Below are positions 2,271-24,243 of a stretch of 36,217 nt of DNA, one piece after another. Origin of the DNA: Cytophagales bacterium (GTDB lineage: Bacteria > Bacteroidota > Bacteroidia > Cytophagales > Thermoflexibacteraceae); NCBI GenBank assembly GCA_013298985.1, contig JAAFJS010000029.1:1-36217 (forward strand). The letters are read 5' to 3'. Under the pieces are notes generated by a model. That model was not told where the DNA came from. It worked only from the letters and a program-made list of their open reading frames with translations, and did no database searches. A program made the translations under genes and the position numbers. The stretch's first letter is position 1. Each line of letters starts with the position of its first letter.

Positions 2271-5200
2271 ATGAGACGAATCTTACTGAGTAATTTTTTG
2301 CTTTTAGTAGCAATTTTGTTTACTTCTGCGGTTTGGGCGCAAGACCGCACCATCAAGGGGAAAGTAACCTCAAAGGAAGAAGGCATTGGGCTTCCTGGGG
2401 TGAATGTGGTCGTCAAAGGCACAAGTGTTGGTACAGCCACCAACACAGATGGTACTTATAGCGTGCAAGTAGCCGCCAATGCGAAAGTGTTGGTTTTTTC
2501 CTTTGTGGGTTTTCAGAACCAAGAGGTAGAGATTGGCAACCGCAATTCCGTAGATGTAGAACTGGTTTCTGATGACAAGGTATTGTCAGAAATCGTGGTT
2601 ACGGCGGTGGGTATTGAGCGCAATACCAAGAAGTTAGGCTATTCTGTGGAGCAGGTTAGCTCAGAAAAATTGGTGCAGAAATCAGAGCCTGATGTACTGC
2701 GCGCCTTGCAGGGCAAAGTGCCAGGGCTAAATATTTCGAGTTCTGGCGGTGCGGCGGGTAGCTCTACGCGTATCACGATTCGCGGTGCTAACTCGTTCAG
2801 TGGCAATAACCAGCCGCTTTTTGTGGTAGATGGGATTCCATTTAACAACGATTTGGTAGAAACCACCAATTCAAGGGACAATGGTGCAGCGTACTCAAGT
2901 CGCGTGGCAGCGGCGGCGGCTTTGTACGGTACGCGTGCAGCAAACGGCGTGATTGTGATTACGACCAAATCAGGGAGCAACAAAGCCTCTGCCAAAAAAG
3001 GACTGGAAGTTACCTACAATACAAGCTACAGCAACGAAAGAATAGCCAATTATCCTAATTTTCAAAACAAGTACGGACCTGGTTCTCAGCAGGTTTACGC
3101 CAATGCAAACGGCACTTGGGGTCCCGAATTTGGCTTGGGTAGGACTTATGCTGGTACAGGTGGCTACACGCCCAATACCACAGGCACAGATTCTATTCCT
3201 ATCTGGGTGGGTTATAATACGTATGCTGCCCAGTTTCCACAGCAAGCGGCGCAGTTTGGACTTAGGGCGGGCGGAAACGTAGCCTACCAAGCCTATCCTG
3301 ACAACGTCAAAGATTTTTTCCGCAATGGAAATGTTTTTGAAAACTCGATTAGCGTTACAGGGGGAACACCCAAAGCAAGCATTACCGCAGTGCTTTCGAG
3401 CATGAAACAGCAAAGTTTTTTCCCTGGTTCTGATTTTAGTCGCTACAACGTCAGCGTGGGTGGAAATACCACACTGGACAACGGATTGATTATTGGTGCA
3501 AATCTTTCATATATTAATAGTATCCAAAACAGTCCTCTTTTTGGGGCAAATGGTACTTCTCCGCTTTCTCGTCTGTTCCAAATGCCGCGCAACTGGCCGC
3601 TTACCAGCCTTCCTTATGAAGACCCCAACGGTACAGGTGTATTCTTTTTTCCGTTTGGTCAGGCAGATAATCCGCTTTGGTCAGTCAATAACAGCATTTT
3701 TAATAGCAAAGTAAGCCGCATCACCACTGCTTTTAGTGCCGCCTATGATGTAAATGATTGGTTCAATATTACTTATAAAATAGGGACAAACTCCTATGGT
3801 GATACGCGTTTGCAACGCATTGCCGCAGGTTCGCTGTCGGGCGCGCAAGGCTTGGGTAGCATCAATCAAGACCAAATTAATTTCCAAGAGATAGAATCAA
3901 ACTTGCTGTTTAACTTCAATAAAAAACTTTCGGAAGACTGGACGGTCAAGGCTACAGTAGGGCATAATGTCAATCAACGCACCACCGACCAGCGTTCTGT
4001 AACCAGTTTGGGCATTATTTCTCGTGGCATAGACCTACTTACCAATACGAATAGCTTGCAGGCACTACCCAGTGCGTACAGTCGTCGCCGTTTGTGGGCG
4101 GTACTTGCAGATATTACTGTAGATTACAAAAACTTTTTGTCCTTGAATTTTACAGGCAGAAATGACAATTCTTCTACCCTTCCCAAAGACAAACGAAATT
4201 ATTTTTACTATTCGGCAAGTGGTTCGTTTAACATCATTGACGCATTTGCGATTAAGTCTGAGGTCATCAATGGCGCAAAAATCAGAGGTGGCTACGCCCG
4301 CGTGGGTCGCGACGCCTCTCCTTACCAAGTTATTAATACGTTTAACATCAACTTTGGACAGGCTACAGGCTTAGAAGGTGCTTTGCGAAACAACGATTTT
4401 CCTTTCAATGGGCAGGCGGGTGCTTCTGCAAACCCTGTTTTTACTGACCCAAACTTAAAACCCGAATTTACCAATGAGGTAGAAACAGGCTTGAACTTGG
4501 AATTATTCAAAAGCCGCATCACCCTGGACGTAACTTATTATAATCGATTGACTACGGACGTGATTGCCAATCGCGCCGTACCGCGCAGTACAGGTTATTA
4601 CAATTTCACCACCAACTTTGGAGCTATCCGCAACAAGGGCTGGGAAATTGGCTTGAATATCGTCCCTCTTGACCTAAATAATGGCTTGAAATGGGATATT
4701 TATGCCGCTTTCACACGCAACCGCAATATTGTAGAAAGTCTTACGGACGGCGTTCAGGAAATTATTTTACGTAATTTGTTTTCAGGAAATACCAATATAG
4801 TGCCTGTGGTGCGCCCTGGTGAGCCTTTTGGTGCGTTGCGCGGTACGTATGCTGCTCGCGATGCCAATGGCAACTTGCTCATAGACCCCAATACAGGGCT
4901 GATAATCCAATCTTTGGACAATAAAATCGTAGGCGACCCCAACCCTGATTTCATTTTGGGTGTTACCAATACCATTTCATACAAAGGTTTTACGCTTAGT
5001 GGCGTGATTGACTACCGCAAAGGTGGCGATATTTATTCTTGGACAAACCAATTTTTGCTCGGTAGAGGTGTAACCAAAGATACCGAAGACCGCGAAATTC
5101 CAAAAATAGTGCCTGGGGTGCTGGGCAATCCTAATACCTTGCAGCCATTGCTGGGCGGAGATGGACAGCCTATCCGCAATACGATTCAAGTGATGGAGAA

Positions 5201-14079: not shown

Positions 14080-14121
14080 AAAAATAGTGCGTACTAAATC
14101 ATTAAATAAGTCAGGCTGTCC

Positions 14122-14241
14122 ATAAAAAAACAGTCTTAGCGCAAAGCACCAAGACTGTTTCAATGATTGTTTCAAATTTACCCCTTATTAAATATCTTAA
14201 AAGTATTTCTTTGAAAAATACTATTTTTTCTTATTTATTTA
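14122..14241 (-). ncRNA. Candidate small RNA, copy A
   Basis: A minus-strand unit of about 120 nt. The promoter is TTATTG (CAATAA at 14275-14280), 20 bp, then TAATTTTG (CAAAATTA at 14247-14254). The body carries AAGGGGTAAATTTGAAAC. The 3' end is AAACAGTCTT, an inner GTGC/GCGC stem around TTT, AAGACTGTTT and seven T residues (14128-14160 with the T-run at 14124-14130). The RNA ends are inferred from these elements. No start codon with a sensible frame was found in it. A paralogous unit follows upstream (copy B). Confidence 0.6.
14124..14160 (-). terminator. Terminator of small-RNA copy A
   Basis: On the minus strand a 15-bp nearly perfect stem (outer AAACAGTCTT/AAGACTGTTT, inner GTGC/GCGC) with a TTT loop is followed by seven T residues. 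The apical GTGCTTTG is shared with copy B while the outer stem is entirely different. Confidence 0.85.
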
Positions 14242-14246
14242 TGTTA

Positions 14247-14280
14247 CAAAATTACTACAACTTTCTCAATGCTACAATAA
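14247..14280 (-). promoter_or_regulatory. Promoter of small-RNA copy A
   Basis: On the minus strand: TTATTG, 20-bp spacer, TAATTTTG. Both parts fit the Bacteroidota consensus. The eight bases and the next six (TAACAT) are identical in copy B. Confidence 0.7.
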
Positions 14281-14415
14281 GTTTTCTTACTCAAAAATGA
14301 TAAGTAGTCATACTTATTTTTATCTATGTAAAACTGCTTAGTTTTATTATTTTTATTTGTAACTATTTGTTTATTAATTTTTTACAGATAAAGAAGATAA
14401 ATAAATTGACATTTT

Positions 14416-14454
14416 AAGAAAAAGTCAATTTCAGCACAAAGCACTGAAATTGAC
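14416..14454 (-). terminator. Terminator of small-RNA copy B
   Basis: On the minus strand GTCAATTTCA pairs with TGAAATTGAC (10 bp). The stem continues through GTGC/GTGC around TTT and is followed by TTTTTCTT. Confidence 0.85.
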
Positions 14455-14471
14455 CGAATAATTATTTCAAA

Positions 14472-14487
14472 CGGTTCGCCGTAGCGA
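14472..14487 (+). repeat. 16-nt element inserted in small-RNA copy B
   Basis: CGGTTCGCCGTAGCGA sits between TTTCAAA and TTTACCCC. In copy A the same flanks are directly joined (about 14170-14184). Related copies occur at 25682-25697 (same strand, two differences) and 5562-5577 (opposite strand, three differences). It can fold as TCGC-CGTA-GCGA. Confidence 0.7.
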
Positions 14488-14584
14488 TTTACCCCCTTAA
14501 TAAATATCATAAAAGAAATTCTAAATTTTTTATGAACCTTCTGTTCTTTGATTTTTACAATTTCCTTTATGCTATATGATGTTA

Positions 14585-14592
14585 CAAAATTA
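14585..14592 (-). promoter_or_regulatory. Promoter -7 box of small-RNA copy B
   Basis: TAATTTTG on the minus strand, identical to copy A over 14 bases. The best TTTG upstream is only 13 bp away, shorter than usual, so this promoter may be weaker than that of copy A. Confidence 0.5.
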
Positions 14593-14750
14593 GCACCAAC
14601 TATGCCAAAAAGCTATCAGCTATCTCACTCAAAATAAGTAAGTAATAACACTCAAAATTTGGCTTTCTTGCTTTTTAGCCAAAAAAATCGCATATTTAAA
14701 AGACTATTTAGCCTTTGCGACAGCTCTAAAACCATAACTTTTAGCTTTAT

Positions 14751-23842: not shown

Positions 23843-23878
23843 ATACTTTTATAAAAATAGATTCAATATAAATATAAA

Positions 23879-24243
23879 AAAAAACAAGCCTATAAGCCGA
23901 ATTTTGTACTGTTTGCACAGCTCTTATCATTTATCTTGGCTTGCCATCACTGACAAGCTCATGCGACCTACCCGCCTGCTTGGGCGCGCGACCCTTCGTT
24001 AGTTGCCTAACACACAGGCATATTTGGTCTTGCAACCCATAAGGTTTACCCTGCCAAGTGCATCACTGCCCTTGCGGTGCGCTCTTACCGCACCTTTTCA
24101 CCCTTACCCTTGCGGGCGGTATATTTTCTGTGGCACTGTCTATCAGCTTTTTAGGCTGTCTTCCCGTTAGGAAGTACGGCGCGCTATGTTGTTCGGACTT
24201 TCCTCTGACTTTATTCAAATCAGCGATAAGACGGCTTGTTTTG
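23879..24243 (-). ncRNA. rnpB: RNase P RNA
   Basis: The minus strand carries the hallmarks of the catalytic RNA of ribonuclease P, which matures tRNA 5' ends. The P4 5' half AGAGGAAAGTCC is near the 5' end. The conserved 3' segment ACAAAATTCGGCTTAT is near the 3' end. The ends AAAACAAGCC and GGCTTGTTTT pair to form P1. The 3' T-run right after P1 would terminate transcription. The length of about 365 nt is normal. The exact ends are inferred from P1. Confidence 0.95.

Follow-up and report, generated by a model that had tools for sequence, protein, structure and literature searches.

Occurrence and extent of the family

The question raised by this locus is whether two similar minus-strand units, lying between a histidine kinase gene and a DUF4419-TonB gene, encode regulatory RNAs, and what such RNAs might do. 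The window, by which the whole stretch of 36,217 nucleotides analysed here is meant (contig JAAFJS010000029.1, assembly GCA_013298985.1, Cytophagales, Thermoflexibacteraceae), had previously been interpreted from its letters alone, and this sequence-only reading had proposed a tandemly duplicated regulatory RNA family. Both units were recovered where they had been placed: when two mismatches at most are allowed, the window has two occurrences of the pattern TTAATAAGGGGNTAAAT for the core, where 0.07 would be expected. Unit 1 is predicted to give a small RNA of about 120 nt (14121..14242, minus strand; folding z −4.65) and unit 2 one of about 163 nt (14417..14580, minus strand; folding z −5.43), the ends being predicted in both cases; both units fold much better than shuffled sequence. 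Elsewhere in the window, at 23877–24242 on the minus strand, lies the class A RNase P RNA (Rfam, 283 bits).

With unit 1 as the query, eight places in its own genome were matched, unit 1 included. Covariance model R1 was built from nine aligned copies, and model R2 from 29 copies. In the same genome (genus Thermoflexibacter), R1 returned both window units (unit 1, 90.8 bits, E 8e-11 in its own genome; unit 2, 79.7 bits), seven other clear copies, three partial or diverged copies (two on C50 and one on C197) and one weak match without a promoter (C362); the genome is counted as having at least nine copies and as many as 12, the range over R1 and R2 being 9–13. The two models found ten copies in one congener (G001), four in another (G002, T. 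ruber), one in each of four species of a second genus (g5) and two in a genome of a third genus (G008). R2 with stricter filters gave no match in 377 genomes from other families of the order, and within that sample none was seen beyond Thermoflexibacteraceae. The covariance-model search that the sequence-only reading had proposed thus returned relatives in which the pairing is kept. As judged from genome sequence, both window units belong to a multicopy small RNA family not catalogued before, with the general traits of such families: several intergenic genes, each with its own promoter and terminator, a common core and no conserved open reading frame.

Duplication is therefore supported, but the tandem arrangement is incidental, most copies being dispersed through the genome. 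Overall, unit 2 resembles L117, a copy from another species, more closely than it resembles unit 1, so the pair is not simply a recent tandem duplication. Two arrays occur in G001 (L071, 1623–5680; L110, 1124–6109), each with four RNA copies in the same orientation that alternate with unrelated genes, including toxin–antitoxin-like pairs, at a spacing of about 1–3 kb. These arrays had suggested an integron-like cassette boundary, which was rejected: single copies keep their synteny from one species to the next, and inspection of the flanking ORFs by eye brought out no recombinase.

Promoter architecture

The element TAATTTTGTAACAT, formerly read as the start of the RNA, is indeed conserved but is not the start. 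It corresponds to TAATTTTG, a −7 box of the type TAnnTTTG, which is the Bacteroidota −7 promoter motif of the literature, and the RNAs should accordingly start a few bases downstream (at about 14242 and 14580). The −7 elements lie at 14247..14254 (unit 1) and 14585..14592 (unit 2), both on the minus strand. Upstream of the −7 box there is a 19-nt palindrome, TACTYA-N7-TGAGYA, a putative activator site. In unit 1 it reads TACTTATCATTTTTGAGTA (14288..14306, minus strand; no mismatch) and in unit 2 TACTTACTTATTTTGAGTG (14626..14644, minus strand; one mismatch), 33 nt from the −7 box in each.

Palindrome and −7 box are both present in 26 units, which come from three genera, and in 24 of these the spacer is exactly 33 nt (one of the 24 having a mismatched −7 box); the two exceptions measure 48 nt, a 15-nt repeat having been inserted, and 32 nt. 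A search of the entire genome to which the window belongs for the 60-nt architecture of palindrome and −7 box, a single mismatch being tolerated, gave six matches, all six at copies of the RNA. So rigid a spacing suggests a single activator that binds the palindrome and is common to all copies. In genus g5 (L150–L153) the palindrome also lies about 10 nt upstream of the predicted start of a divergent gene (murF-alr by eye), and the factor could therefore affect that gene too. Identity of the palindrome with the HrcA/CIRCE site was rejected, since only the inner ACTC..GAGT is shared.

Structure of the predicted RNAs

The RNAs, with a predicted length of about 95–165 nt, begin at the 5′ end with a hairpin that varies from copy to copy and end in a terminator whose stem covaries; between the two lies the unpaired core UUAAUAAGGGG(G)UAAAUUU. 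The 5′ part differs among copies in sequence and length while the hairpin is kept (mean z −2.65 over 26 copies). In unit 1 it is the hairpin AGTATTT..AAATACT (14202..14222, minus strand); in unit 2 it is long (14508..14572, minus strand), as it is in the related copy L117 (z −5.6 and −5.8). Conservation is highest in the stretch between this hairpin and the terminator, which is unpaired. This stretch is kept across three genera, lies at 14170..14200 in unit 1 and at 14488..14512 in unit 2 (both minus strand), and is the proposed target-pairing region; TTAATAAGGGGTAAATTTAAACAAC within the family is near-invariant in genera g5 and g7, and the type B core is one G shorter.

The intrinsic terminator stem–loops were located at 14128..14160 (unit 1) and 14424..14454 (unit 2), both on the minus strand, and folding bore out the earlier statement that both stems are fully paired. 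That their outer stems differ completely was a misleading impression: unit 1 carries the CAGTC..GACTG stem common in the family, and unit 2 belongs to a minority with another stem. Conservation of the structure is evident over 29 copies, in which the stem is 97.2% paired with compensatory changes in 12 of its 15 pairs; none of 500 shuffles paired as well, and slid controls dropped to 40–60% pairing. No start codon or reading frame is conserved across copies, in agreement with the sequence-only reading, and a leader peptide was rejected on the absence of a conserved start codon.

Inserted elements and viral matches

A GC-rich repeat of 15–18 nt (ATCGCNRCGGCGAACCGT / CGGGCGGCGAACCGC) is scattered through the AT-rich genome and inserted in several RNA copies, and it looks like a very small mobile repeat. 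In unit 2 it is present as TCGCTACGGCGAACCG (14472..14487, minus strand); being missing from most copies, it is not part of the family. Further sites are in L004, L012, L101 and L110 (about 5100–5115), and in L004 a related piece, GGGCGGCACTCCG, is what stretches the spacer of the promoter to 48 nt instead of 33. A different element with GGACTTACGCA ends (a MITE or IS end) separates the promoter from the core in the C223 copy (L002, about 47280–47460), and in the C379 copy (L012) it is found immediately upstream of the core. Both copies may be dead as a result; the promoter of C223, split from its RNA by the element, also has the 33-nt spacer.

A phage origin was rejected: the type A core was found in no viral contig, and the 16-nt type B core was found in 35, which is about the number expected by chance (rough estimate), none of them scoring well with R2. 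The viral contig L396 (IMGVR_UViG_3300003654_000069) contains AAATTTACCCCTTATT, the exact core complement, five times between genes (625, 1626, 1874, 2134, 2511), probably as the virus's own promoter motif by chance.

Genomic context of the copies

In each of the four g5 species the single copy is flanked by the same pair of genes, and one type B copy lies downstream of one orthologous gene, which we take to be gldJ, in three of three genomes of the window's genus. Other copies keep their neighbours too (IcmF-like and sialidase-like genes, named by eye). For roughly half of the copies that were mapped, the downstream gene is on the opposite strand, so that the RNA does not qualify as a leader. 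The genes that flank the units in the window are those that had been named, the histidine kinase carrying a 7TMR-DISM region, but other members of the family do not keep them as neighbours. A linkage to polymorphic toxins, a first impression from two flanking genes, was not borne out.

Candidate targets

Candidate targets were searched for in two ways. In the first search, the 9-mer ATTTACCCC followed by an ATG within 30 nt was sought; most matches were within coding sequence, and ten were at true gene starts, nearly all of these genes encoding exported or envelope proteins as judged by their N-termini. In the second search, the 11-mer AATTTACCCCT, a complement of the core, was required with an ATG within 20 nt, and true starts were called by simple ORF rules. 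Of the 11 such sites in genomes that carry the RNA, 6 lay at a true translation start, as opposed to 5 of 87 in genomes without it (Fisher p 1.6e-4, an optimistic value because the 11-mer was narrowed after the 9-mer matches had been seen, so that it lends support and not proof). The number of sites is not raised in RNA-bearing genomes; the difference is in their position at gene starts only. Among the sites of G011, scored after the test was set, one of three was at a gene start, and one of the six start-site cases (L311) comes from a genome first examined after the test was set.

Three homologous pairs (L191/L205, L200/L280 and L270/L311) keep the site, with only 25–33% identity over the 40 nt upstream (10–13 of 40 positions, the random level). 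The best duplexes between core and target for these pairs were calculated at −15.5 to −22 kcal/mol. The proteins are TPR/coiled-coil membrane proteins (G000, G002), TPR-caspase-like proteins (G006, G012) and membrane proteins of 72–74 aa (G011, G012). Candidate targets are few per genome, a modest number for a multicopy RNA. As to the contact site, for which the terminator apex and the AAGGGG core had both been suggested, the core is the better candidate and the apex is not supported.

Interpretation

The reading that we favour, and regard as fairly probable on these comparative data, is that of paralogous trans-acting small RNAs under one activator, the core of which pairs with the translation starts of mRNAs for exported and envelope proteins. 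A single dedicated transcription activator would bind TACTYA-N7-TGAGYA 33 nt upstream of TAnnTTTG and turn the copies on together. Each transcript of about 95–165 nt would then present its single-stranded core between 5′ stem–loop and intrinsic terminator, and the core would pair with AAUUUACCCCU(U) in the translation-initiation region of the target mRNA and so block the initiation of translation.

Alternatively, the RNAs could be real and co-regulated and yet titrate a protein through the exposed AAGGGG(G)U core, as a sponge of the CsrB type, the complements at gene starts being coincidental. That many copies share an identical exposed core and little else would suit such a role; each RNA, however, has one G-rich core and not repeats of it, genus g5 has a single copy, and complementary sites are kept in homologous start regions, and we consider titration unlikely. 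Still less probable is a mobile or selfish repeat, dispersed like a MITE or REP element, that carries promoter and terminator by chance. Copy number does vary among species, G001 has its two arrays of four, and other repeats occur in and around copies, but synteny is stable within genera, no terminal repeats were seen around the copies, and neither the fixed promoter spacing nor covarying stems with variable 5′ parts would be expected of such a repeat. It is very improbable that the core is Shine–Dalgarno-like, pairing with the 16S rRNA anti-SD or preceding a tiny ORF: by inspection, AAGGGGGU can pair with ACCUCCUU, which we take to be the 16S rRNA end, with one G–U pair, but no start codon or frame is conserved downstream of the core, and the type B copies, with one G fewer, break the register. 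Least probable of all is that the RNA acts in cis on the gene downstream of it, as a riboswitch-like leader or attenuator, for although a terminator follows a short transcribed leader and unit 1 is followed on its own strand by the histidine kinase gene, no gene lies between unit 2 and unit 1, the gene faced is convergent in about half of the copies mapped, and no Rfam leader reached the cut-off.

A wider reading may be put forward tentatively, although we think it rather doubtful: a family-wide dedicated activator–small RNA circuit, in which the factor's sites, as far as found, stand only before this RNA family, amplified to about ten genes in one genus, might form a hub from which envelope and exported proteins are regulated post-transcriptionally in bacteria without Shine–Dalgarno leaders. 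Bacteroidota are a phylum without such leaders, and trans-acting small RNAs are scarcely known in Bacteroidota other than Bacteroides. The family offers a defined promoter code, a structure, a range of copy numbers (1 to 10 or more) and named candidate targets, and thereby a testable second case of paralogous small RNAs controlling envelope genes in such a phylum, as well as a route to finding its regulator.

Comparison with known systems

No Rfam family reached its cut-off; GibS and FopS appeared below it, for unit 1 only. FopS (RF04319; PMC11697453) comprises paralogous small RNAs of Bacteroides, many of them intergenic, that pair with the start region of envelope-protein mRNAs. The present family resembles it in its phylum, its many intergenic paralogues and promoters of the TAnnTTTG type, and also in start-region pairing with envelope-protein mRNAs, which was shown for FopS and is proposed here. 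FopS RNAs are about 65–70 nt long with the R1′ seed at the 5′ end (PMC11697453), whereas the present RNAs have a 5′ hairpin followed by an internal core within 95–165 nt and, unlike FopS, a fixed upstream palindrome; RbpB binding is a trait of FopS. The Rfam FopS model gave 20.0 bits for unit 1 against a gathering score of 56, and no match in 16 loci of other copies.

GibS (RF04182; PMC7366714), also of Bacteroides, is about 145 nt long, largely single-stranded, ends in a terminator and acts at start codons. The present RNAs share its length, its largely single-stranded form, its terminator and, presumably, its site of action, but GibS is a single gene and the present family is multicopy. The GibS model matched unit 1 only (33.2 bits against a gathering score of 115, with base pairs only in the terminator) and none of the 16 other loci.

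The csRNAs of streptococci, which belong to the CiaR regulon (PMC3091779), are several similar small RNAs under one regulator with a fixed upstream site. They share with the present family two stem–loops around an unpaired region, which in our case would likewise be aimed at translation starts. They belong to another phylum, the core of the present family is not anti-SD, and the CiaR site is a direct repeat, TTTAAG-N5-TTTAAG, whereas the element upstream of the present copies is the inverted repeat TACTYA-N7-TGAGYA. The family would thus work like FopS and GibS and like the csRNAs and is a member of neither group; with the kind already known from FopS and the csRNAs and no Rfam family at cut-off, it represents a new family of a known kind.
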